In this document: in pieces, positions 1 through 12,184 of the stretch
How positions within the stretch are numbered: the first letter of the stretch is position 1
How the letters are laid out: each line of letters starts with the position of its first letter
DNA from: Vulcanococcus limneticus LL
Lineage (GTDB): Bacteria; Cyanobacteriota; Cyanobacteriia; PCC-6307; Cyanobiaceae
Direction of reading: 5' to 3'
DNA: 45,961 nt
Assembly (NCBI RefSeq): GCF_002252705.1
Contig: NZ_NQLA01000025.1
Location: 1 to 45,961, forward strand
Program-made: the position numbers and the translations under genes
Notes under the pieces: generated by a model
What the model was told of the DNA's origin: nothing
The model's database searches: none
The model's input: only the letters and a program-made list of their open reading frames with translations

Positions 1-10
1 CCCATGAGGT

Positions 11-286
11 CTACACTGAGACCAAACCCTGTTCTTCCCGCTCGGGGTTAACGATGTCAGGGGCCGAATCTGTCCAATAAAAGCCATCCACCTCAGTCTC
101 TAACCCCGGGCTTCGAGTGGTCACCACCAGAGAGAGGAACACAAGCTTATTGGAGAGGTTCGAGATCGTCAGGAAGTAGCCCTGGAGGATGGTTCGGGCG
201 AGAGGAGCGAGTTCAGGTCGAGCTTCGGTGATCGACTTTGGCAGCTGTGGCTTGAGAAGAATTTCGAACGTGGAGACGTGAGCCAT
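11..286 (-). CDS. Hypothetical protein, 91 aa, possibly frameshifted at its 3' end
   Basis: I do not recognise the family. The ORF starts with ATG at 284-286 and ends with TAG at 11-13. The body (a Leu/Pro-rich first half, then a hydrophobic beta-like stretch around NKLVFLSLVVTTRS) reads like real protein. The last ten residues (EREEQGLVSV) look less natural than the alternative frame of the same DNA, which reads GRTGFGLSVDLMG and runs off the window edge. A one-base shift near position 30-40 is therefore possible, and the real gene may continue beyond the window. Local base composition is less GC-rich than the core genes. There is no neighbour with a related role. Confidence 0.45.
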   Translation of the reverse strand: MAHVSTFEILLKPQLPKSITEARPELAPLARTILQGYFLTISNLSNKLVFLSLVVTTRSPGLETEVDGFYWTDSAPDIVNPEREEQGLVSV

Positions 287-408
287 GTCTTTCCATGAGG
301 GAATAAATCTTTATTCCGACTCGGGCAGAGGCGTGTAGCCTGGCCCACGCCGAGACGTGCCGTTAGCAATATCTGCTATAAAGTAGCGACCCAAAGAGCC
401 ATTGGCTG

Positions 409-576
409 TCATGGCCAATGCTGCGCAGGGATTGCCTCTGCTCCTATCCTAATCATTCTAGTGATGACCATTTGACGTTTACCTTCTCTCTGGGCGATTG
501 AATACGCGTCAACCAGAGACAGATGGGCCACCAACTCTTCGGTCAGCCATTGCCGCTGGCCACGGTAAGGCGACAT
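409..576 (-). CDS. Possible small protein, 55 aa
   Basis: This is a short reverse-strand frame beginning ATG at 574-576 and ending TGA at 409-411. The product begins MSPYRGQRQWLTEELVAHLS and has an amphipathic, charged composition that looks protein-like rather than random. An in-frame TAG lies about seven codons upstream, so the frame cannot be much longer. No family is recognised and no clear ribosome binding site is seen. It may be a remnant of a larger gene, because this 2.4-kb region is sparse and decayed. The rest of 287-819 shows no supported gene; a 7-bp inverted repeat (CATTGGC/GCCAATG, 400-420) overlaps the 3' end. Confidence 0.25.
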   Translation of the reverse strand: MSPYRGQRQWLTEELVAHLSLVDAYSIAQREGKRQMVITRMIRIGAEAIPAQHWP

Positions 577-819
577 TCGACCAACGCCAGTGAATACCTA
601 GGCTGGTTGTAGGCTGCTGTCTTTAGCGCTGTCACCCCAGTTGAGCGGGCAGGCTAACTCCCCTTCTTTTCCTTAGCGAATGAGCTGACATGGCTGCTTG
701 CCCTAAGCTCAAGGGCAATGAAGCAGCTGCATGATGTGCCCAGTTCAGCCCCTCGGGGATGCGCCCGCCTCGGCGCTTGGGCACCTGCGCGCTACATCAT
801 AGTCACGAGGACTCATTGC

Positions 820-1386
820 ATGTCAATCATCAACATTGCCTCAGCAGAGGAGATGCTATTTCAGTCACTCTTTCAAAGACGAGCAATAGAGATAGATGCC
901 TCAGTCAAGAGCAAAACCCTGGACCTCGGGTGCGGCCAGGTGCCGCGCAATCCATTTAAGTGCAACACAACTGTTGGGTGCGACATCAATAGCGGTCATC
1001 CCCTGGTTGTCGAATGTGACTTATTTCGAGAAAAGCTTCCATTCGAGACCGGTGATTTCTCAGCAATAACCGCATTTGACTTTGTAGAGCATGTGCCCCG
1101 GGTGTCAATAGGCGAGACGACTCGGTTTCCCTTTGTAGAGCTAATGAATGAGATCTTGAGGGTTCTCAGAACCGGTGGCTACTTCTACAGCAGAACGCCG
1201 GCCTACCCTCACGCCGAGGCGTTCCAGGATCCAACCCACGTCAACATTATTACGGATAAGACTTGGCCAACTTATTTCTGTGGGGACAATCCCGTGGGAG
1301 CATTGTATGGCTTCAATGGGGGCTTCAAGCTAGTATTTCAAGGCTGGCATGGCTTTTATCTGCTTACTATCCTGCAAAAGATATGA
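820..1386 (+). CDS. SAM-dependent class I methyltransferase
   Basis: The product (188 aa from ATG 820) carries a Rossmann SAM-binding motif I, LDLGCG, near residue 35. A second acidic turn follows (GCDINSGHPL), then FDFVEHV and a late conserved DPTHVN segment near residue 147. Small methyltransferases of this kind often sit in polysaccharide or glycan gene sets, but no such partners are here, so the substrate is unknown. An upstream ATG at 718 is in frame, but the added residues look non-coding. Base composition is clearly more AT-rich than the genes from 2417 onward, and the gene is isolated between decayed segments. This suggests acquisition by transfer. Confidence 0.7.
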   Translation: MSIINIASAEEMLFQSLFQRRAIEIDASVKSKTLDLGCGQVPRNPFKCNTTVGCDINSGHPLVVECDLFREKLPFETGDFSAITAFDFVEHVPRVSIGETTRFPFVELMNEILRVLRTGGYFYSRTPAYPHAEAFQDPTHVNIITDKTWPTYFCGDNPVGALYGFNGGFKLVFQGWHGFYLLTILQKI

Positions 1387-1675
1387 CTGAAATTTCACTG
1401 AGCCGGCCTTGGCATTCGCGAGAAGCATGAAGAGAGCAGAGTCTTGCAAAGATGCTTCTTGATGAACCTTTGAGCATTCAGGTTCTGGTCCGCTGCTGCG
1501 CGCGGATAGTGCCGATACTGGCCTACGCCTACGATCAGTAAGTCGTTTCTACTACTTTTCAAATTCGGCTCCCTTGGGGCTGCATTGATGGCCAGCTTGG
1601 CTTAACTCAACACGCTACCCCTGAGGCTAGTGATCACTCGCAGAGGCTGTGAGTCGTGACGGTGTTAGCGACGCT

Positions 1676-2221
1676 CTAGGGATTGGACACTTTGCTCGCC
1701 CCTTTGGCCTTGGCTACATCCGTCAATGAGGCCCATCGCACCAGCTCCATGGAGTAAGCCACCTCAACGGCTTGTCTGGTCTGGGGCTTGACTAGGGTGC
1801 CCTCGTCGCCCAAGGCGCTGTCCAAGCTCTTTGCCACAGTATCCATGGTCTGCGAATCCAGGTCGTCCAGCTCTCCACTGGCCTAAACGGAATAGGTTCC
1901 GTTCAAGCCGCCGGCCATCTCCCAACGGCGCTCGACCGCTTCGAGCATGCGGTCCACTGCAGGTTTGCTGACATGCTCCTGCCAGAGGGGCAGGGACTGG
2001 CGAAGCGATTTGAGGGGGTCGACTGGCAGCCCCTGAAGGGGCACATCATGGCGAAGAACCATGGCCGTGCAGTTGGCCAGGGCGTTCAGCTTGTCCTTAG
2101 CCGGCCTGCCGAGGACATCGAGACAGCACTCCCCGATGCAAGCGACAGGGAAGGCGGCCGGCCACAGACGGTGTTGGTACTGCGCCACGTTCTTCCCAAA
2201 CCAGAGCCCCATACCGCCCAT
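1676..2221 (-). pseudogene. Hypothetical gene interrupted by an in-frame TAG
   Basis: From ATG at 2219-2221 the reverse strand codes 112 residues to a TAG at 1883-1885. The same frame then continues for 68 more sense codons (starting ASGELDDLDSQT, ending GASKVSNP) to TAG at 1676-1678. Both halves look like genuine protein, and no shift of frame is needed to join them, so the simplest reading is one gene of about 180 codons with a nonsense mutation. An upstream stop ten codons before the ATG limits the 5' end, although the region before the ATG (ALAAVSGMGGMG) also looks coding, so the gene may be 5'-truncated too. The family is not recognised. Confidence 0.5.
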
Positions 2222-2374
2222 GCCACTGACGGCAGCAAGAGCCCCACGGGCCTACGCAGATGGAGCGGCCACGAGCCACCCCTCCAGGGGATTCGACCCT
2301 CGTCTAGCCGCCCAATCCAGCCCGCTTTCTAGCCCCCACAAGTAGCCTCGTAGGGTTGAGGAGGCCAGATAAGA

Positions 2375-2394
2375 GCCCCCTTCTCAGAGGAGGC
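2375..2394 (-). terminator. Possible terminator after glnA
   Basis: Reading the reverse strand, GCCTCCT (2394-2388) can pair with AGGGGGC (2381-2375), giving seven pairs including one G-U and a six-base loop. It is followed by a weak T-containing run (TCTTAT). It lies about 20 bases beyond the glnA stop, in the expected place, but the U-tract is poor. Confidence 0.35.
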
Positions 2395-2416
2395 TTTAGG
2401 CGGGAAAGCGTGATAA

Positions 2417-3835
2417 TCACGCGTCGTAATACATGGTGAACTCGTGGGGGTGGGGCCGCTGGCGCAGCTGCTGCACCTCCTCGTACTTCATACCGATCCA
2501 GTTGTTGATGAAGTCCTCGCTGAACACGCCACCGGCCAGCAGGTAGTCCTTATCGGCATCGAGGGCCTCCAGGGCGCCATTGAGCGAGGCGGGCACGGTG
2601 GAGATCCGGGCCAGTTCCTCCGCCGACAGCTCGAACAGATCCACATCGGTGCCGTCACCGGGGTCGATCTGGTTGCGGATTCCGTCCAGACCCGCCAGCA
2701 GCATCGCCGAGAAGGCCAGATAGGGATTGGCCAGGGCGTCGCCGGAGCGGAACTCCAGGCGCTTGGCCTTGGGGCTGGGGCCGGTGAGCGGAATGCGCAC
2801 GGCGGCCGAGCGGTTGCCCTGGGAATACACCAGGTTCACTGGCGCCTCGAAGCCAGGCACCAGACGCTTGTAGCTGTTGGTGGTGGGGTTGGTGAAGGCC
2901 AGGAAGCTGGGGGCGTGCCTGAGCAGGCCGCCGATGTACCAGCGGGCCGTCTGGGAGAGGTTGGCGTAGGTGCCCTCGCCGAAGAACAGGGGCTGGCCGC
3001 CTTTCCAGAGGCTCTGGTGCACGTGCATGCCGCTGCCGTTGTCGGAGAACACGGGCTTGGGCATGAAGGTGGCCGTCCTGCCGTATTTCTTGGCGACGTT
3101 GCGCACCACGTACTTGTAGATCATCACGTTGTCGGCCGCACTGATCAGCTCGGCGAACTTCATGCCCAATTCATGCTGGGCCGTGGCCACTTCGTGGTGA
3201 TGCTTTTCGATCGGTACCCCCAGGGACCCCATGGTGAGGATCATCTCGCTCCGCATGTCCTGGAGGGTGTCGTTGGGGGCCACGGGGAAATAGCCCTCCT
3301 TCAGCTGGATCTTGTAGGCCAGGTTGCCGCCCTCCTCCAGGCGGGCGGTGTTCCAGGGCGCCTCGATCGAATCCACGGCGTAGAAGCTGCTGCCGGGGCT
3401 GGAGTTGTAGCGGACGTCATCGAAGATGAAGAACTCGGGCTCCGGGCCGAAGTAGGCGGTGTCCGCCAGGCCCGTAGAGGCCAGGTAGGCGAGGGCCTTC
3501 TGGGCCAGGGCCCGGGGGCAGCGGCCGTAGGGCTGGCCGCTGCGGGGCTCCTGGATCGAACAGATCAGGCTGAGGGTCTTGTGGCGATAGAAGGGGTCGA
3601 TCCAGGCGGTGGCGGGATCCGGCACCATGGCCATGTCCGACTCGTTGATCGCCTTCCAGCCGCGGATCGAAGAGCCATCGAAGGCCAGGCCCTCCGTGAA
3701 GGCGGCCCCATCGACCAGGTCGGCACAGACCGTGAGGTGCTGCCACTTGCCGTGCAGATCGGTGAACTTCAGATCGATCAGTTCGATGCCCTCGTCCTTG
3801 ATCTGACGGAGCACGTCCTGGGCGGTCTTGGCCAT
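2417..3835 (-). CDS. glnA: Glutamine synthetase type I
   Basis: This enzyme condenses ammonium with glutamate using ATP and is the entry point of the GS-GOGAT pathway in the cytoplasm. The 472-residue product has the usual GSI length. It shows the N-terminal FDGSSIRGW signature near residue 51, the metal-binding [11 protein letters not shown] near 132, [12 protein letters not shown] near 270, the [10 protein letters not shown] loop, and NRSAAVRIP. The start ATG at 3833-3835 gives the conserved [15 protein letters not shown] opening; a frame open to 4138 is non-coding upstream sequence. The position of the enterobacterial adenylylation tyrosine (NLYDLPPEE) reads DLFELSAEE, so the Tyr is Phe. 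Control by adenylylation is therefore not expected, in line with cyanobacterial GS, which is controlled by inactivating factors. An NtcA-type promoter precedes it. Confidence 0.97.
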
Positions 3836-4003
3836 GACGGTGGGTACGGGGTGGGTGCGAAAGGGATGAACGGGCGAAGCTGGAAACGAAGGCGGTGGGG
3901 AGGCAGATCTCGACGGGAGGTGGGGCCGGATCCCGAAGGGATCGCCCGGGCCGCCTGAGGATTCCGCGACGCCGCCGCCGCCGATCTGAAATGACGCCGC
4001 CGG

Positions 4004-4046
4004 ACGGTACGGAGCGACCCGCGCAGCCCTGTGTAGCGCCTGTAAC
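4004..4046 (-). promoter_or_regulatory. NtcA-activated promoter of glnA
   Basis: On the glnA strand, GTT-N8-TAC lies at 4046-4033 (GTTACAGGCGCTAC), one base off the GTA-N8-TAC consensus. Exactly 23 bases later comes TACCGT (4009-4004), matching the TAN3T -10 box. The 22-23 base spacing is the classic class II NtcA promoter geometry. This predicts a transcript start near 3997 and a leader of about 160 bases. The leader contains a short perfect hairpin (GATCCC/GGGATC at 3929-3943). Confidence 0.75.
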
Positions 4047-4179
4047 CAAAACCCGCCCCTAGCTGCGATCGGCGTTTGCGTAACCGTTTCTGTCAACTTC
4101 ACCAGAACCGGGGCAGGGCAAGGGATCTGCCCCTTCACAGGTGCTACGTTCCGGCTCAGGTGCGTCGATTCTTCACGCC

Positions 4180-4710
4180 ATGCGCGATGCCATCACCGGT
4201 CTGATTGGTCGCTACGACCAACTGGGGCGCTACCTCGATCGCAACGCGATCGATCGCATCGCCACCTACTACGGCGAGGCCGAGCTGCGCCTTGCCGCCG
4301 TGGAGACGATCAACCGCGAGGCCGCCGAAATCGTGCGCGAGGCCAGCCAGCGCCTCTGGCAGGCCGATCCCGAGCTGCTGCTGCCCGGCGGCAACGCCTA
4401 CACCACCCGTCGCTGGGCTGCCTGCCTGCGCGACATGGACTACTTCCTGCGCTACGCCAGCTACGCGTTGGTGGCCGACGACAGCACGATTCTCAACGAG
4501 CGGGTGCTCAACGGTCTAGACGACACCTACAAGAGCCTCGGCGTCCCCACTGGCCCCACCGTGCGCAGCATCGCCCTGCTGGCGGATGTGCTGGTGGAGA
4601 AGCTGGCCGATGCCGGCGTGGCCGATGGCGCCAGCCTCGAGGCCGTGGTTCGCGCCCCCTTCACCCATCTGGCCCGCGGCCTGGGCGACACCAACGTGCG
4701 CGCCCGCTGA
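4180..4710 (+). CDS. apcF: Allophycocyanin beta-18 subunit (phycobilisome core)
   Basis: This is a phycobiliprotein of 176 residues that replaces one ApcB in the core trimer carrying the terminal emitters, helping pass energy to the photosystems on the thylakoid membrane. The opening [20 protein letters not shown] and the sequences GGNAYTTRR and [19 protein letters not shown] match ApcF better than ApcB. The cysteine in AACLRD is the bilin attachment site, and the Asn of GGNAYT is the usual methylated position. The start at ATG 4180 is set by the family N-terminus; an in-frame GTG at 4141 would add unrelated residues. The gene is divergent from glnA, and two palindromes follow it. Confidence 0.93.
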
Positions 4711-4744
4711 ACCGCACGCTGGATCTTGCCCATCCCTGAACATC

Positions 4745-4801
4745 GTGTCCAGGCGGACACTGTTCCAGGCCAGACAGAGCCCAGGCCTGGGCTCTGTCTG
4801 G
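4745..4801. repeat. Tandem palindromes: GTGTCC hairpin and 32-bp perfect palindrome
   Basis: GTGTCC-AGGC-GGACAC occupies 4745-4760. Ten bases later, CCAGACAGAGCCCAGG (4770-4785) is followed immediately by its exact reverse complement (4786-4801), a perfect 32-bp palindrome with no spacer. As RNA it would form a hairpin of about 14 pairs. No T-run follows on either strand, so it is not a standard intrinsic terminator, though it could end or stabilise the apcF transcript. It lies 60 bases after the apcF stop and about 110 bases before the aminotransferase start. Confidence 0.85.
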
Positions 4802-4909
4802 AGCGGCTGCCCGCCGAAGCGGCCGCTGTCCGGGGCACCCCCCGGCCGCTGCTTAGGCTTCCCCCACCCTGTTTGCCCCCAGGTCTTGGCTTCCCCCATC
4901 CCTGCTCCC

Positions 4910-6079
4910 GTGTCCGATCGCCATCGCCTGAGCCTCGGGCCGATCGCCACGCCAGATCGGCTGCTGCTGGGACCAGGACCCTCAAACGCCCACCCCACGG
5001 TGCTGCAGGCCCTCAGCCGCACACCGATCGGCCACCTCGACCCGCTGTACGTGGCCCTGATGGGCGAGGTGCAGGAGCTGTTGCGCTACGTGTGGCAGAC
5101 CGACAATCGCCTCACCCTGCCGATGAGCGGCACGGGCAGCGCGGCGATGGAGGCCACCCTCGCCAACATGGTGGAGCCGGGCGATGCGGTGCTGGTGGCG
5201 GTGAAGGGCTACTTCGGCCTGCGCCTGCAGGACATGGCCGGCCGCTACCGGGCCGATGTGCACACGATCCAGAAGCCCTGGGGTGAGGCCTTCAGTCTGG
5301 AGGAGATCGAGGCCGGCCTGAAGCAATACCGGCCCAAGATCCTGGCCATGGTCCACGCCGAGACCTCCACCGGCGTCTGCCAGCCGATGCAGGGCATCGG
5401 CGATCTCTGCCGCCAGTACGACTGCCTGCTGCTGCTCGACACGGTCACCTCCCTCGGGGCGGTACCGCTGTATCTGGATGAGTGGAAGGTGGACCTCGCC
5501 TACAGCTGCAGCCAGAAGGGGCTGAGCTGCCCGCCGGGCCTGGGTCCCTTCTCGATGGGGCTGCGCGCCGAGGAGAAGCTGGCCAATCGTCAGAGCAAGG
5601 TGCCCAACTGGTACCTGGATGTGAGCCTGCTCAACCAGTACTGGGGCAGTGACCGCGTGTATCACCACACGGCGCCCGTGAACATGAACTTCGGCATGCG
5701 CGAAGCCCTGCGCCTGATCGCCGAGGAGGGACTGGAGAACGTCTGGGCGCGCCACCGGAGCAACGCCGAGCGGCTCTGGACCGGCCTCGAGCGGCTGGGC
5801 CTGGAACCCCACGTGCCCCTGGAACTGCGCCTGCCGACCCTCACCACCGTGCGGATCCCCGATGGCGTGGACGGCAAGGCCTTCAGCCTCCACCTGCTCA
5901 ACAAACACGGCATCGAGGTGGGCGGCGGCCTCGGCGCCCTTGCCGGCAAGGTGTGGCGCATCGGCCTGATGGGCTACAACAGCCGGGCCGAGAACGTGGA
6001 CCTGTTGCTCAACCTGCTGGAGGAGGAGCTGCCCGCCTTCAAGCCCGCTTCCCCCGCTGTTGCCGCCGTCGCTGCCTGA
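4910..6079 (+). CDS. Class V aminotransferase (serine/alanine-glyoxylate type)
   Basis: This PLP-dependent transaminase of about 389 residues is of the serine-pyruvate / alanine-glyoxylate group. In cyanobacteria these are linked to photorespiratory glycolate and glycine metabolism. Visible landmarks are the LLGPGPSNAHP substrate-side loop near the N-terminus, SGTGSAAMEATLAN around residue 78, the ETSTGV segment near 151, DTVTSLGAVPL near 178, and the Schiff-base lysine in SCSQKGLSCPPG. The frame is open further upstream, but the family N-terminus fits GTG at 4910 (reading VSDRHRLSLG). The 3' end overlaps the convergent tadA gene by about 40 bases. Exact substrates cannot be read from sequence. 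Confidence 0.9.
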   Translation: MSDRHRLSLGPIATPDRLLLGPGPSNAHPTVLQALSRTPIGHLDPLYVALMGEVQELLRYVWQTDNRLTLPMSGTGSAAMEATLANMVEPGDAVLVAVKGYFGLRLQDMAGRYRADVHTIQKPWGEAFSLEEIEAGLKQYRPKILAMVHAETSTGVCQPMQGIGDLCRQYDCLLLLDTVTSLGAVPLYLDEWKVDLAYSCSQKGLSCPPGLGPFSMGLRAEEKLANRQSKVPNWYLDVSLLNQYWGSDRVYHHTAPVNMNFGMREALRLIAEEGLENVWARHRSNAERLWTGLERLGLEPHVPLELRLPTLTTVRIPDGVDGKAFSLHLLNKHGIEVGGGLGALAGKVWRIGLMGYNSRAENVDLLLNLLEEELPAFKPASPAVAAVAA

Positions 6080-6587
6080 ACCACTGCTGCAGTTGCTCCT
6101 GGCACTCCACTGAGCGCAGACCGCCCACTACCTGCATGGCGTGGTGGGCGCTGGGGTCATGGACGAGATCCAGGCAGCCGCCCATGGCGCCGCGCTTGGG
6201 GTCGCCAGCACCGAAGACCACGCGGCCCATGCGGGCCTGCACCAGGGCGCCGGCACACATCGGGCAGGGCTCCAGGGTCACCAGCAGGGTGCAGTCGTTG
6301 AAGCGCCAGTCCTGACGCAGGCGTGCCGCCTGGGCCAGGGCAGCCAGCTCGGCGTGGCCGAGGGGATCCTGATCCCGCTCGCGCCGGTTACTTCCCCAGC
6401 CGATCGCCCGACCAGCACCATCGAGCAGCACCGCCGCTACGGGCACCTCGCCGCGCTCGCCCACCCGGGCGGCCCGGCGCAACAGCCGCTCCATCCACAG
6501 CGCCTCGGCGGGGGTGGGGTCTGGACTGGAACTGGGGCTGCTCAGGGCCGGCTCGGGTGCTGCGGGCAGATTGGCACCGGCAGCCAC
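6039..6587 (-). CDS. tadA: tRNA-specific adenosine deaminase
   Basis: This enzyme deaminates A34 of tRNA-Arg(ACG) to inosine, and the product is a cytidine-deaminase-fold protein of up to 182 residues. The zinc and catalytic motif GHAEL and the paired cysteines in EPCPMCAGALVQARM are both present, with the following RVVFGAGDPKRGAMGG typical of TadA. A GTG at 6585-6587 starts the longest frame; the first 30 residues are Ala/Pro/Ser-rich and poorly conserved, so ATG at 6492-6494 (MERLLRRAARVG) is a credible alternative. It converges on the aminotransferase with a coding overlap at 6039-6079, and its 5' end faces the decarboxylase at 6674. Confidence 0.92.
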   Translation of the reverse strand: MAAGANLPAAPEPALSSPSSSPDPTPAEALWMERLLRRAARVGERGEVPVAAVLLDGAGRAIGWGSNRRERDQDPLGHAELAALAQAARLRQDWRFNDCTLLVTLEPCPMCAGALVQARMGRVVFGAGDPKRGAMGGCLDLVHDPSAHHAMQVVGGLRSVECQEQLQQWFRQRRRQQRGKRA

Positions 6588-6673
6588 GAGCTCCGGGACC
6601 CCGACAGCGGAGAATGGGGAGCCTTGATGCCAGGTCGTTGGCTCCAGCCCCCCAGCCCGAGCCAGCGGACTCC

Positions 6674-8146
6674 ATGCCGGGCCTGAGGTCAGCCCCGAGC
6701 CGCGCAGGCGCGGGATTGCAGGCGCCCGGCCCCGCCCTGTCGGTCCCGCCTGTGGCAGCTAGGCCCCTGGTGGCCTTTCCAGACCCCGCGACCCTCGATC
6801 CGGCCCTGGGCGCCTTCCTCAACCAGGCCAGCGAACAACTGGGCCGCTGGTGGGCCACTGCCGCCGAACGACCACCGCTTCCTGCACTGAGCGTGCTGCC
6901 GGAGGTGGCTCCCCAGGCCCGGGGCCTGGAGGCCGCAGCCCTGCTGGAGGATCTGCAGCTGGTGATGGACGGGGCCTACAACCCCTGCCACCCCGGTGCC
7001 CTGGCCCACCTGGACCCTCCGCCGTTGACCGCCTCGGTGGTGGCCGACCTGGTGGCAGCCGGGCTCAACAACAACCTGCTGGCCGAAGAGCTCTCCCCCA
7101 GCCTCAGCCGGCTGGAGCGGGCCCTCTGCAGCTGGATGGCCCAGACCCTGGGCCTGGGGGAGCGGGCCGGCGGGGTGTGTGCCAGTGGCGGCAGCCTCAG
7201 CAACCTGATGGCCCTGGTGGTGGCCCGCCACCACGGCGGCCTGCAGGGCCGCAGCGATGCGGTGGTGTTCTGCAGCGCCGATGCCCACGTGTCGATCGGC
7301 AAGGCCCTGGCGGTGATGGGGCTGCCGCCCAAGGCCCTACAGCCAATCCCCGTGGACGCGGAAGGCCGCCTGCAGGTGCCGCTGCTGGCCGAGGCACTGG
7401 AGCAGCAGACCCGCCGCGGTGAGCCCACCCTGGCGGTGGTGGCCACGGCCGGCACCACCGTGCGCGGGGCCGTGGATCCGCTCGGCCCCCTGGCGGAACT
7501 GTGCCGGAGCCACGGCGCCTGGCTGCATGTGGATGGAGCGATCGGTGCCGTCTGCGGGCTCACGGGGCGCCATGCACAGCGCGTGGCGGGGCTGGGCCTG
7601 GCCGATTCGCTCACGGTGAATCCCCAGAAGCTGCTCGGCGTTGCCAAGACCTCCTCGCTGCTGCTGCTGGCGGACCCACAGCGACTGGCCTCCTGCTTCG
7701 CCACGGGCCTGCCCTACATGGAGCCCAGCTGGGGCGAGGCCCACGGCGGCGAGTGCGGCCTGCAGGGCACCCGGCCCGCGGAGGCGCTCAAGCTCTGGCT
7801 CGGCCTGCGCCAGCTGGGCCTCGAAGGGATCGAGGCGGTGCTGGATGGGGCGATCGCCCGCCGCCGCCGGCTGCGACAGTTGCTGGAACCCCTGGATCTT
7901 GAGCTGCTAGGCGGCCCATTGCACCTGCTGGCCTTCACGCCACGGGGCTCGACGCCGCGCCAGGCAGAACTGTGGTCGGCGCTGACGCGGCAGCGGCTTC
8001 TGGAACAGCAGCTGATGCTCTCTAGGCCGCTGCATAACGGCCGCCACCACCTCAAGGCGGTGCTGGGCAACCCCCACACGGGCGAGAGCCAACTGCAGGC
8101 CATCGCCCGAGTGGTAGCCGCCTCCCTCCAGGAGCCTCTGGCATGA
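6674..8146 (+). CDS. Group II pyridoxal-dependent amino-acid decarboxylase
   Basis: The 490-residue product belongs to the PLP fold-type I decarboxylases (glutamate / aromatic / diaminobutyrate group). Landmarks are the YNPCHPGALAHLDPPP segment near residue 100, GVCASGGSLSNLMAL (cofactor phosphate side), VVATAGTTVRGAVDPL, WLHVDGAIGAV with the cofactor-contacting Asp, and the Schiff-base lysine in LTVNPQKLLG. The resemblance is nearest to L-2,4-diaminobutyrate decarboxylase-type enzymes, but substrate cannot be fixed. ATG 6674 is the first reasonable start; the frame before it is antisense to tadA. The first 30 residues are low-complexity, so a later start is possible. It overlaps the next small gene by four bases. 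Confidence 0.85.
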   Translation: MPGLRSAPSRAGAGLQAPGPALSVPPVAARPLVAFPDPATLDPALGAFLNQASEQLGRWWATAAERPPLPALSVLPEVAPQARGLEAAALLEDLQLVMDGAYNPCHPGALAHLDPPPLTASVVADLVAAGLNNNLLAEELSPSLSRLERALCSWMAQTLGLGERAGGVCASGGSLSNLMALVVARHHGGLQGRSDAVVFCSADAHVSIGKALAVMGLPPKALQPIPVDAEGRLQVPLLAEALEQQTRRGEPTLAVVATAGTTVRGAVDPLGPLAELCRSHGAWLHVDGAIGAVCGLTGRHAQRVAGLGLADSLTVNPQKLLGVAKTSSLLLLADPQRLASCFATGLPYMEPSWGEAHGGECGLQGTRPAEALKLWLGLRQLGLEGIEAVLDGAIARRRRLRQLLEPLDLELLGGPLHLLAFTPRGSTPRQAELWSALTRQRLLEQQLMLSRPLHNGRHHLKAVLGNPHTGESQLQAIARVVAASLQEPLA

Positions 8147-8415
8147 ACGACGATCCCCGCCCCCAGACCGCTCCGTTGAGCCCAAACCCCCGCGGCCGCT
8201 GGGTTGCGATCGTGACCGGTGCCCTGTCGGTGCTGATCGGAGTGCTCTATCTGGTGCTGATCACGGTGCTCGATTCCCGGGGCCCCCTGCTCCCCCCTCC
8301 GCCTGAGGCCCTGGGGATCGCGGTCCAGCCGGCGGCGGGCCCGGTGGCCGAGCGACCGGCCGGGGCGGCAACTGGGGATCCTTCCGCCGTTGCAACGGCT
8401 CCACCACCCGCCTGA
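8143..8415 (+). CDS. Small single-pass membrane protein, hypothetical
   Basis: The product has 90 residues: a polar Pro-rich start, one membrane segment at about residues 20-45 (VAIVTGALSVLIGVLYLVLI), then an Ala/Pro-rich tail. Its ATG overlaps the decarboxylase stop (ATGA), pointing to coupled translation. Its 3' 155 bases overlap the convergent GTPase gene in antisense, so the low-complexity tail may partly be dictated by the other strand. No family name is recognised. Confidence 0.6.
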   Translation: MNDDPRPQTAPLSPNPRGRWVAIVTGALSVLIGVLYLVLITVLDSRGPLLPPPPEALGIAVQPAAGPVAERPAGAATGDPSAVATAPPPA

Positions 8416-9910
8416 GGGCGGCATCGAGGAACAGGCGCAGGGCCGAGTCGCGCCGGTTGAGGTCGTACTGGCGCTGCACCACCTCCTGAACGCCGCCGTC
8501 GCCCCAGTCCTGGTCCTGCTGGAAGTAGGTGATGAAGCTGCGGCCAGCGACCCGCGTCAGCCAGGCAGCCCCCACGGCCTGTACCGCGCGGCTCAGCAGC
8601 AGGGCCGGCAGATTGAGGGTGAGCGCGGCCCCGATCAGGCTCAGGCCCCCCTTGATCACCCCCAGGCTGGCCAGGGTGCGCCCCACTGACACCGCCAGCT
8701 CCTGGGCCGTGGCCTTGCTGAGCGTCACGCCGTAGACCCGGCCAATCTCCACCACCATCTGGGCGTTCACCGCCGCGGCACCAAGCAGATCCACCACCGG
8801 CAGGGGCGTGGCGGCCAGCACACCGGCGCTGATCCAGGCGTAGCGGTCCACGATCGCCTCGGCGTCGCCCTGGCGCTGCTGGCCGAGCAGCTGGCGGCCT
8901 GCCTCGCTGAGGCGGCGGCTCTGCAGCAGGATGTTGTCGGCGATCAGCTCCTCGCCATCGCTGTGCAGCACCTGGGCGAGGCGACGCAGCAAGGCATCGA
9001 GTTCCGGCGGCGGCTGCACAGGCCGGCCACCGGGCATGGGCACGCTCTGGGGGGCGGCGCTGGCGGCCACCACGTCCTCCGGGGCGATGCGGCCGAGGCA
9101 GCGCTGGCGCAGCAGGGCCAGCAGGCGGCGCTCCTCCTCCTCGCCGCGCAGGTCAGCCTTGTTGAGCACCAGGATCAGCCGTTTGCCCAGGCTGGCCAGG
9201 GCATCAAACACCTCCTGCTCGGCGGCCCGCAGATCCCCATCCACCACCAGCAGCAGCAGGTCGGCGTTGGCGGCCTGCTGGCGGGCGACCTGCTCCCGAT
9301 CCCGGCCCGCGCTGCCGGCCTCGAGGATGCCGGGGGTGTCCACCAGCTGCAGACCCCTCGGCAGATCCCGAAGCCGCAGCCGGTAGGTGCTGCACACCCC
9401 GGTGGAGCCCATGGGGGCCCCCACCTGGCCCACCACCTCCTGGAGCAGGGCTCGGATCAGGGAGGTCTTGCCGGCGGATCCGCTGCCGAACAGCACCAGC
9501 ACCAGGTCGCCGCGCTGGAGTTCCGCCGCCACCCGCGCGCGCTCCTGCTGCAGGGCCTGGCGACCCACGTCGTCACGGATGCGGTTGAGCAACTGATCGA
9601 TGGCTTCGAGGTTCTGCTGGGCCGCCTCCTGGCGGCTGCCGGGAGCCGACGGCAACGGACGGCCAGTGGCCGACGCCGAGCCCTTCCAGCTCTGGCGGCG
9701 CAAGTCCACCAGCCAGGGCCAGGCCAGCCGCGCCAGCAGCAGGGCCCCGCCGCCGAACAGCAGCAGGGCAACCGGCCCCACCAACCAGCCCGGCAGCAGG
9801 TAGCTGAGCTGCCACAGCAGATTGTTCAGAGCCTGCAGCGCGGCCGTGATCGCCACCAGGGCAGCCAGCGCCACCCCAAGCCAGATCCACAGGCGCGGCG
9901 GGGTCTTCAC
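8261..9910 (-). CDS. Membrane-anchored GTPase with DUF697-type C-terminal region
   Basis: The 549-residue product starts with two hydrophobic segments (about residues 8-60). It is followed by a GTPase domain with G1 FGSGSAGKTSLIRALL near residue 142, G3 LVDTPGILE near 194, and G4 LVLNKADLR near 248. The C-terminal half is hydrophobic and Ala/Leu-rich (WISAGVLAATPLPVVDLLGAAA), typical of the YcjF/DUF697 group of Era-like GTPases. The tail (last 40 residues) is Pro/Gly repetitive. The start codon is GTG at 9908-9910. The role is probably at the membrane but undefined for this family. It lies downstream of the penicillin-binding protein on the same strand with a 36-base gap, so they may be cotranscribed. 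Confidence 0.82.
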   Translation of the reverse strand: MKTPPRLWIWLGVALAALVAITAALQALNNLLWQLSYLLPGWLVGPVALLLFGGGALLLARLAWPWLVDLRRQSWKGSASATGRPLPSAPGSRQEAAQQNLEAIDQLLNRIRDDVGRQALQQERARVAAELQRGDLVLVLFGSGSAGKTSLIRALLQEVVGQVGAPMGSTGVCSTYRLRLRDLPRGLQLVDTPGILEAGSAGRDREQVARQQAANADLLLLVVDGDLRAAEQEVFDALASLGKRLILVLNKADLRGEEEERRLLALLRQRCLGRIAPEDVVAASAAPQSVPMPGGRPVQPPPELDALLRRLAQVLHSDGEELIADNILLQSRRLSEAGRQLLGQQRQGDAEAIVDRYAWISAGVLAATPLPVVDLLGAAAVNAQMVVEIGRVYGVTLSKATAQELAVSVGRTLASLGVIKGGLSLIGAALTLNLPALLLSRAVQAVGAAWLTRVAGRSFITYFQQDQDWGDGGVQEVVQRQYDLNRRDSALRLFLDAALRRVVEPLQRRKDPQLPPRPVARPPGPPPAGPRSPGPQAEGGAGGPGNRAP

Positions 9911-9946
9911 GGGAATGGCGGGGTCACGGGGTCACGGGACCGGGTC

Positions 9947-12184
9947 TCACAGCTTGGCGCTGGCCGGGAGGCTGCCGCTGCCAGCGGAGCGGATGATGGT
10001 GCTCCATAGGCCGGCCGCCAGGGCACTGCTGCTGCCGGTGGGGCGGTTGTCGTCGTTGCCGAGCCAGATGCCGATCACCCAGTGGCGGCGTGGCTCGTAG
10101 CCCACGAACAGCAGGTCGCGGCCCTCGTTGGTGGTGCCGGTTTTGCCGCCCTCCTCGCCGCCGAGGCTGGCGGCGCCCCCGGTGCCGGCCCGTACCACCC
10201 CCCGCAGCAGGCCCTGCATCTGCTGGGCCGTGGCCGCCGCTGTCACGCGCCGTGCCGGGCTGATCGGCCGCTCGCTGGCTCCCTTGCGGCTGCGGCAGCG
10301 GCTGCTCTCGAGGCCGCCGCAGGTCTCGGCGTCGGTGAGGCGCCTCACCGTGCGCGGTGCATGCCAGACGCCGTTGTTGGCAATGGCGGCGTAGGCGGCC
10401 GTGAGTTCGATCAGGCGCACTTCGCTCTGGCCAAGGGCCAGGCCCGGCACGGGATCCAGGGGGGTGCTGATGCCCAGGTCGCGGGCCTTCTGGACCACCG
10501 CATCGAGCCCCACCCGCTTGGCCAGGCGCAGGGCGGCGGTGTTGCTGCTGGCGGCGAAGGCGGAGCTGAGGGACAGGCGGCCGCCGCAAGCGCTGGCAAA
10601 GGCCTGGCCGCCCCAGTCCAGGGGGGCACAGCTCACCGTGTCGCCCGGGCGGAGGCCCTTCTCCAGGGCCGCGAGATAGGTAAACAGCTTGAAGGTGCTG
10701 CCCGGCTGGCGCAGGGCCATCGAGGCCCGGTTGAACTGGCTGCGCCGGTAGTCGCGGCCGCCGGCGATGGCCAGCACGCCGCCGCTGCGGGAATCGAGCA
10801 CCACGACGGCGCCCTCGCTGACCGCCGGGGCGGTGCTGGCCAGCAGCTCCCGCAGGCGCCGCTCCACCACCTCCTGCAGCAGCGGATCGAGGTGCGTCTC
10901 CACCAGGAAGTTGCCCTCGGCGGCCACGTCTGGCCCCAGCAGGGCATCGAGGTCACGGCGTACCTGATCGGTGTAAAACGGCATGGGCCGGCGGACGGCG
11001 CTGCCGGAGCCGCCGCCAGCTGGGCCAGCTGTGGCACCTGCAGAGGCTCCACCCCCACTGCAGGCCGTGGGTGCGAGGGTGATCGGCTGCCGCCGGGCCC
11101 TGCGGGCGGCACCGGAATCGAGCCGGCCCGTGTCCGCCATCTTGTTGATCACGGTGTTGCGGACTTCCAGGGCCACCTGGGGGTTGACGCAGGGGTCATG
11201 GCCGTTGGGGGAGGGCAGCAGAGCCACCAGCAGGGCCGCCTCCTCCAGCCGCAGCTCTCGGGCCGGTTTGGCGAAGAAGCTGCGGGCGGCATCCTCAAAG
11301 CCCCAGCCCACCCCCAGGTACACCCGGTTGAGATAGCTGAGCAGCAGGTCTTGCTTGCTGAAGCGTGCCTCCAGCTGCAGGGCCACCAACAGTTCGCGCC
11401 ACTTGCGCGCCAGGGTCTCACCCTCGCCCACCTGCTCGGGATAGAGGCTGCGGGCCAGCTGCTGGGTGAGGGTGCTCCCCCCCTCCAGTACCCGGCCTCC
11501 GAGCACATTGGTCACCAAGGCGCGGCCGGTGCCGATCGGATCCACGCCCGGATGCCACCAGAAGCGGCTGTCCTCGCTGGCCAGCAGGGCGTCCACCAGC
11601 ACCGAGGGATAGCCATCAAGACTGCGGTTCTCGCGGTGCTGGCTCGTGTCGGCCGAGGGGATCGGCCGGTTGGCGCCATCGAACAGGGACAAGGGGCCTC
11701 GCACACTGGCCAGATTGCCCCGCAGCGGCTGGCCCAGCAGCGAGAGGCCCAGCAGGGCCAGGCCGGCAGCGGCCGCCGCCGCCAGACCCAGGCTGGCAAC
11801 GCGGGCCAGGGGCACCAGCGGCGAAGCCTGACGGCCGTGGAACACCAGTTCCGGCAGGTCGGGCTCAGAGGCGGGACCGAAGCGCACCCGATCGCCATCG
11901 GCCAGCAGCAGCTCGCCCACACGCCGGCCGCGCCACCAGAGGCCGTTGGTGGAGCCGGCATCCCGCAGCAGCCAGTGGCGGCCCAGCTGCTCCAGCAGGG
12001 CGTGCTGCTTGCTCACGGCCCCGTGGGGCAGGCAGATCTCCTGGCGCGGGTCGCGGCCGATCCGGTAGGTGCCGCCATGCAGCACGAGCTGCCGCGGCTC
12101 CTGGCCCGGACAGTGCAGCTCCAGCTGGGCCGCGGCGTCCGGACGGGCTGGCAGCAGCCAGCGGCGCAGGCCCTCAGCGGTCAT
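9947..12184 (-). CDS. FHA-domain bifunctional penicillin-binding protein (class A)
   Basis: This enzyme polymerises and cross-links peptidoglycan at the outer face of the plasma membrane. From the N-terminus it has a cytoplasmic forkhead-associated domain (YRIGRDP, then VSKQHALLE and DAGSTNG) and a membrane segment at about residues 125-150. The GT51 transglycosylase domain follows (LLASEDSRFWWHPGVD, GGSTLTQQLARSLYPE), then the transpeptidase with QPGSTFK (nucleophile Ser), ASSNTA and GGKTGTTNEG. All catalytic motifs are intact. The FHA domain implies recruitment by Thr-phosphorylated partners. ATG 12182-12184 is chosen; ATG 12206-12208 or GTG 12209-12211 would add up to nine residues and a longer overlap with lspA. 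It is probably cotranscribed with lspA and bioY. Confidence 0.93.
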   Translation of the reverse strand: MTAEGLRRWLLPARPDAAAQLELHCPGQEPRQLVLHGGTYRIGRDPRQEICLPHGAVSKQHALLEQLGRHWLLRDAGSTNGLWWRGRRVGELLLADGDRVRFGPASEPDLPELVFHGRQASPLVPLARVASLGLAAAAAAGLALLGLSLLGQPLRGNLASVRGPLSLFDGANRPIPSADTSQHRENRSLDGYPSVLVDALLASEDSRFWWHPGVDPIGTGRALVTNVLGGRVLEGGSTLTQQLARSLYPEQVGEGETLARKWRELLVALQLEARFSKQDLLLSYLNRVYLGVGWGFEDAARSFFAKPARELRLEEAALLVALLPSPNGHDPCVNPQVALEVRNTVINKMADTGRLDSGAARRARRQPITLAPTACSGGGASAGATAGPAGGGSGSAVRRPMPFYTDQVRRDLDALLGPDVAAEGNFLVETHLDPLLQEVVERRLRELLASTAPAVSEGAVVVLDSRSGGVLAIAGGRDYRRSQFNRASMALRQPGSTFKLFTYLAALEKGLRPGDTVSCAPLDWGGQAFASACGGRLSLSSAFAASSNTAALRLAKRVGLDAVVQKARDLGISTPLDPVPGLALGQSEVRLIELTAAYAAIANNGVWHAPRTVRRLTDAETCGGLESSRCRSRKGASERPISPARRVTAAATAQQMQGLLRGVVRAGTGGAASLGGEEGGKTGTTNEGRDLLFVGYEPRRHWVIGIWLGNDDNRPTGSSSALAAGLWSTIIRSAGSGSLPASAKL

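Follow-up and report, generated by a model that had tools for sequence, protein, structure and literature searches.

In the window, i.e. the whole stretch of 45,961 nucleotides analysed here (67.9% GC), a gene for a phycobilisome protein of the allophycocyanin-beta type, which we take, with the first-pass annotation, to be apcF, is followed on the same strand by a class-V aminotransferase gene. No NCBIfam model scores above its cut-off for either protein, the best one for the apcF-like protein being apcB (205.1 bits, under the cut-off of 228.15), and 22 of the other 24 genomes of the genus contain a relative at 84–98% identity. Since the tblastn matches of the aminotransferase in relatives begin at its first residues (position 4910), the palindrome lying between the two genes is read as non-coding, although mechanically called open reading frames run across it. 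The genome of Vulcanococcus limneticus LL, as analysed here, comprises 3,548,884 bases in 160 contigs, and the available part of its published description gives 3,548,882 bp, 160 contigs and 68.35% GC (PMC5902973). The features of the locus, all on the plus strand, are as follows, where G019 is the closest relative among the congeneric genomes at hand.

4180–4710, plus strand: apcF-like gene, phycobilisome protein of the allophycocyanin-beta type (Pfam PF00502, E 2.4e-48).
4729–4757, plus strand: A1, upstream copy of a segment also present in G019, with 20 of 29 columns identical to G019; it overlaps hairpin 2.
4745–4760, plus strand: hairpin 2, GTGTCC-AGGC-GGACAC, read directly and present in both the minimum-energy and the centroid folds.
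4770–4785, plus strand: left arm of the palindrome, CCAGACAGAGCCCAGG, read as an inverted copy (A').
4786–4801, plus strand: right arm of the palindrome, the exact reverse complement of the left; with its flanks (4780–4807) it makes up A2.
4803–4826, plus strand: hairpin 3, GCGGCTGC-CCGCCGAA-GCGGCCGC, from the predicted folds, with a counterpart in G019; missed by the first-pass annotation.
About 4830–4845, plus strand: a weaker fourth hairpin, from the predicted fold, likewise missed before.
4854–4859, plus strand: TAGGCT, the probable -10 element of the aminotransferase gene's own promoter.
4910–6079, plus strand: class-V aminotransferase gene (Pfam PF00266, E 6.2e-29).

The palindrome had been described as perfect, 32 bp long and free of a spacer, as very unlikely by chance and as lacking the T-run of an intrinsic terminator, and all of this is borne out. 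Its 16-bp arms (4770–4801) are the longest perfect arms in the window, where the runner-up has 11 bp, and also in 845,961 bases of the LL genome with the window included, where the runner-up has 15 bp (hairpins with loops of 0–8 in both counts), while about 7e-5 zero-spacer palindromes with 16-bp arms are expected from independent letters at matched length and base composition. The letters that follow are AGCGGCTGCC, so that the hairpin of a canonical intrinsic terminator is present and its U-tract is not, and a terminator scan of positions 1–10000 did not list the palindrome. Such a length is not unheard of in the genus, as a 400-kb sample of the congener G013 contains five perfect hairpins with arms of 16–20 bp. 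The LL genome also holds palindromes inside predicted coding regions, with arms of 15 bp (L128, 2013–2043) and 14 bp (L117, 566–596).

The single 16-bp arm, searched in the LL genome with up to two mismatches, matches its own two sites and eight others, none of which yields the same palindrome when folded with its surroundings and judged by eye. The 30-bp core, with up to three mismatches, occurs in one of 400 family genomes drawn from a larger group, namely LL itself. Among the matches listed, the 103-bp stretch 4728–4830 finds in the LL genome itself and then a match at E 0.026, and its best match in the 24 congeners has E 3.1e-4 over 47 bases. The searches of the genome and its relatives proposed by the first-pass annotation thus returned a single occurrence of a sequence that is not conserved; this outcome is the sequence half of the annotation's test of refutation, which coupled it with the lack of a nearby RNA end. 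Plasmids and phages were considered as sources of the 103-bp stretch and rejected, as nine plasmid and four phage records gave short, weak matches, none covering 80% of it (E 0.3 to 1 in the best nine rows). The stem pattern with a free apex was found in 24 stretches of the genome contig database from scattered phyla, in a search from which records of the LL genome itself may have been left out. Cyanobacteria account for one of the 24 (Leptolyngbyaceae), and none is picocyanobacterial by title; all are read as convergent or chance hairpins. The palindrome is real and non-random, yet single and species-specific.

Among 25 congeneric genomes including LL, 22 have at least one gap between apcF and the aminotransferase gene, and 23 such gaps were aligned, as G020 has two; G003, where the contig ends too soon, and G004 and G005, which have lower-identity paralogues only, were left out. 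The gap measures 202 nt in LL, 152 nt in G019 and 68–86 nt at the other 21 loci, i.e. an expanded gap is common to LL and its closest relative, with 50 more bases in LL. The palindrome is absent from G019 and from the 21 shorter gaps, and because apcF is followed at these 21 loci of the genus by 68–86 nt without it, the element is dispensable for apcF. The gap of G019 contains two hairpins, CCCTGGAC/GTCCGGGG and GCGGTCGC/GCGACCGC, the latter at the place of hairpin 3, from which it differs in both members of one base pair and in a single member of another (two sequences compared by eye). At third codon positions, LL differs from G019 at 19 of 176 in apcF and at 61 of 389 in the aminotransferase gene. 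All 23 aligned gaps carry TAG[G/T]CT ahead of the aminotransferase gene, with TAG and CT invariant, and TAGGCT at 4854–4859 is probably the -10 element of that gene, judging from this alignment; a promoter scan of positions 1–10000 listed no promoter-like site. As a separate observation, one apcF–aminotransferase pair of G020 (L016) has 89–92% protein identity, while the second (L036, G020:C11:15018-15536), with a 68-nt gap, has 78–82% and is either contamination or a second copy.

The palindrome was probably formed by inverted copying of a short DNA stretch, as judged from the comparison with G019. All 16 bases of the right arm are aligned to G019 in all 24 co-optimal global alignments at one gap-cost setting, whereas 11 of the 16 bases of the left arm fall in a gap and five are aligned in all 24; the upstream copy A1 has four of its 29 bases paired with G019 in all 24. 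The same picture, with the right arm aligned and the left arm mostly gapped, is given by the first of 24 co-optimal alignments at each of three gap-cost settings. The segment of G019 resembles both flanking copies, since none of 5000 dinucleotide shuffles is as good for A1, and none of 5000 for A2 (4780–4807; 20 of 28 identical), which ranks first of 91,866 28-mers on both strands of the window as a match to this segment. The A copies are only about 70% alike, and the match of A1 to A2 is the less convincing one, ranking 150 of 91,866, with two of 5000 shuffles equal to it. Since one and the same G019 segment corresponds to the right arm and to the copy upstream, the left arm has the look of a copy made locally in inverted orientation. 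A reading of 4740–4786 as a tandem repeat was tried and set aside as weak (170 of 5000 shuffles equal it).

Replication template switching is described as a source of perfect hairpins in the available text of Monttinen and Loytynoja 2022 (PMC8794818), and it could account for this arrangement: a short ancestral segment A would have been copied as A, inverted A and A in one or more such events, where a switch with backward re-entry could yield both the perfect palindrome and the about 50 extra bases. The perfect inverted copy adjoining its likely source is shared with the hairpins in the accessible portion of that study, while here the ancestor is reconstructed from one relative and the A copies are about 70% alike. 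Because there is only this one informative relative, to which either A1 or A2 may be orthologous, the template-switch origin is one that we infer.

As RNA, the palindrome is predicted to form a 14-bp stem with a 4-nt GGCC loop (-27.8 kcal/mol), and the fold of 4740–4805 reaches -38.6 kcal/mol (z = -4.89; none of 200 shuffles equally stable). Hairpin 2, which the first-pass annotation had placed ten bases upstream of the palindrome, is present, the distance being nine bases (4761–4769). Close to the stop codon, which ends at 4710, at least three hairpins (4745–4760, 4770–4801 and 4803–4826) thus follow one another at distances below 15 bases, all of them ahead of the probable promoter of the aminotransferase gene. 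The palindrome among them is most likely a species-specific predicted RNA hairpin.

To our knowledge, cyanobacteria are without Rho, and the Rho RNA-binding domain was not found in the LL genome by a search that was positive in nine of 14 control genomes. The frequency of hairpins behind genes was determined in an 846-kb sample of the LL genome, using gene calls made here from codon usage and not a published annotation. Of 224 gene 3' flanks, 47 contain a 34-nt window that folds at -20 kcal/mol or lower, compared with 18 in shuffled sequence, and six of the 47 have a T-rich tail. For divergent 5' flanks the count is 24 of 194, compared with 20 in shuffled sequence. Strong structure is thus moderately more frequent behind genes (Fisher p 0.026), while at -25 kcal/mol the contrast is not significant (11/224 against 4/194, p 0.19). 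Only two of the 158 tandem 3' flanks fold more strongly in this 34-nt window scan than that of apcF. When gaps were scored by their longest perfect arm and for T-tails on both sides, U-less perfect arms of at least 8 bp showed no significant excess after genes (27 of 242 gaps that are tandem or convergent, 7 of 97 that are divergent; p 0.32), nor did those of at least 10 bp (11/242 against 2/97, p 0.36).

Six other U-less hairpins with arms of at least 11 bp lie in tandem or convergent gaps of the sample; they are all the others with such arms, picked for strength and compared without a matched control, and four of the six have a hairpin at the corresponding site of G019. Two of them lie just after a gene, that of L101 (4888–4916) being nearly identical in G019 and that of L105 (5092–5119) keeping its stem base there with a changed apex. 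The stem is rebuilt in G019 in the case of L125, and the G019 hairpin is shorter, of different letters and followed by a T-rich tail in that of L127; the stem of L103 is broken in G019, where a different fold is predicted, and the G019 match of L119 stopped ahead of the hairpin. A literature search for Vulcanococcus with transcriptome or RNA-seq returned no paper. In Synechococcus elongatus, the accessible part of one study reports canonical intrinsic-terminator features for only 22% of transcription units and, in strain PCC 7942, strong structure at 75 of 163 U-less defined ends, over half being without it (PMC13289151). For PCC 7002, the text available from PMC7406221 gives shorter lifetimes to transcripts ending in I-shaped terminators than to those with a U-tract. 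Hairpin clusters nearly all lie within 80 bases of the stop codon and do without a U-tract, according to the available portion of Gupta and Pal 2021 (PMC8355165).

The best reading is that of a candidate U-less hairpin cluster in the 3' untranslated region that would influence the end of the apcF RNA to some degree, to which we give a probability of roughly 0.45. It is favoured by the strong predicted fold, the excess of structured windows behind genes at -20 kcal/mol, the hairpins kept at four of the six other sites in G019, the two hairpins in the apcF gap of G019 and the Rho RNA-binding domain not found in the genome. Against it count the 21 loci at which apcF does without the palindrome, the non-significant contrasts for perfect arms and at -25 kcal/mol, the U-less ends of PCC 7942 that mostly lack strong structure, the shorter-lived transcripts of PCC 7002 and the modest likeness of the A copies. 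Of the options offered by the first-pass annotation, an RNA-level 3'-end element is retained as the best functional one. The hairpin in the nascent apcF RNA would slow RNA polymerase, halt 3'-5' exonucleases or do both, and the apcF RNA would thereby end cleanly at the hairpin, leaving the aminotransferase gene largely to its own conserved promoter; U-less ('I-shaped') hairpins or hairpin clusters have been proposed to behave in this way.

As a candidate I-shaped terminator, the palindrome has the stable, G+C-rich predicted hairpin, which starts 60 nt past the end of the stop codon, the lack of a U-tract and a genome in which no Rho RNA-binding domain was detected; it differs in its unusually long perfect stem and species-specific sequence. 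As a candidate hairpin-cluster terminator, as far as the available text of PMC8355165 describes these, the locus has at least three predicted hairpins separated by less than 15 bases, of which two begin no more than 80 bases past the stop codon, whereas the third begins here 93 bases after the stop codon. The REP elements by which RNA 3' ends are protected in Escherichia coli, in the part of PMC13289151 at hand, are likewise G+C-rich palindromic hairpins after a gene without a U-tract, while the palindrome is present here as a single copy and not as a repeat.

The U-less hairpin cluster stands ahead of a neutral mutational product, which is nearly as likely. According to the latter, template switching would have duplicated a short stretch on the spot, in a gap under loose constraint, and left a perfect palindrome without particular function, which agrees with its uniqueness, its absence from the closest relative and the A-A'-A arrangement. 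Since palindromes of nearly equal length, with arms of 15 and 14 bp, lie within predicted coding regions (L128 and L117), such structures can arise without a 3'-end function, and the U-less perfect arms, being not significantly enriched after genes, point the same way. The moderate excess of strongly structured windows after genes speaks against this reading, as does the identity of the arms at 16 of 16 positions though the aligned segments differ by about 30% from G019, which a recent event would explain too.

It is improbable that the stretch after apcF is a candidate 3'-end sRNA of the ApcZ type. ApcZ, the 3'-end sRNA of the apc operon, sets a precedent for such RNAs on genes of this kind in the accessible text of PMC8136909, and the locus resembles it in the structured 3' end behind an allophycocyanin-type gene. 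However, ApcZ follows apcC and not apcF, and the stretch differs from the conserved sRNA with its own U-tract terminator that is described there, as it has no such T-run and no conservation was found in the genus, in a comparison with the published description of ApcZ. Rfam gave no match at the gathering thresholds, and the 25 matches at an E-value threshold, mainly to microRNA models and all far under the cut-offs, are taken as chance.

A DNA-level operator, at which a dimeric regulator would bind the dyad and control the aminotransferase gene, is if anything still less probable. The dyad symmetry is perfect and lies upstream of a probable promoter. Yet the palindrome has a single genomic copy, is absent from the shorter gaps of the relatives that keep the -10-like element and ends 52 bp upstream of that element in LL, so that these sequence comparisons lend no support to the protein-binding site suggested before. 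The palindrome is also longer than usual operators.

Membership of a dispersed palindromic repeat family, another of the earlier suggestions, is very improbable and is refuted at the sensitivity used, for although such a family exists in eight congeners, its sequence is different and its core has no match in the LL genome with up to one mismatch, and the palindrome, where many copies would mark a REP-like element, has one copy in LL and none in the 399 other family genomes. This family of the congeners consists of perfect palindromes of about 38–40 bp, roughly TGTCCAnnnn-GGATATCCATGGATATCC-nnnnTGGACA, the 18-bp core of which has, with up to one mismatch, 4–15 forward matches in each of eight of the 25 congeneric genomes (G001, G008, G011, G012, G013, G015, G016 and G023) and none in LL. 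Examples are L148 13779–13818 and L139 785–824 and 10778–10815. Among 20 copies read, eight reach arms of at least 19 bp with up to two mismatches, and the arm middles vary between copies; four copies in the G013 sample lie outside predicted genes. A literature search on the core together with 'palindrome' returned only an unrelated plant paper. A link of hairpin 2 to these TGTCC...GGACA palindromes was also tried and rejected, as such pairs show no enrichment in the gaps sampled from the LL genome (five pairs, with 8 of 29 permuted words doing equally well).

Taken alone, the palindrome looks like an ordinary hairpin at the 3' end of a gene. The apcF hairpin bears on the way in which transcripts are ended in cyanobacteria, which are without Rho. 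A wider proposal, which is unlikely on present evidence, is that U-less hairpins of fast-changing sequence and fixed position may be a real, selected transcription-end signal in this lineage, which has no detectable Rho, with new ones born perfect by template switching and apcF a fresh example; if this were true, the U-less-hairpin signal would be part of the unexplained termination reported for cyanobacteria. As the closest relative at hand has the same flanking genes and lacks the palindrome, the two genomes provide a natural experiment with and without it.
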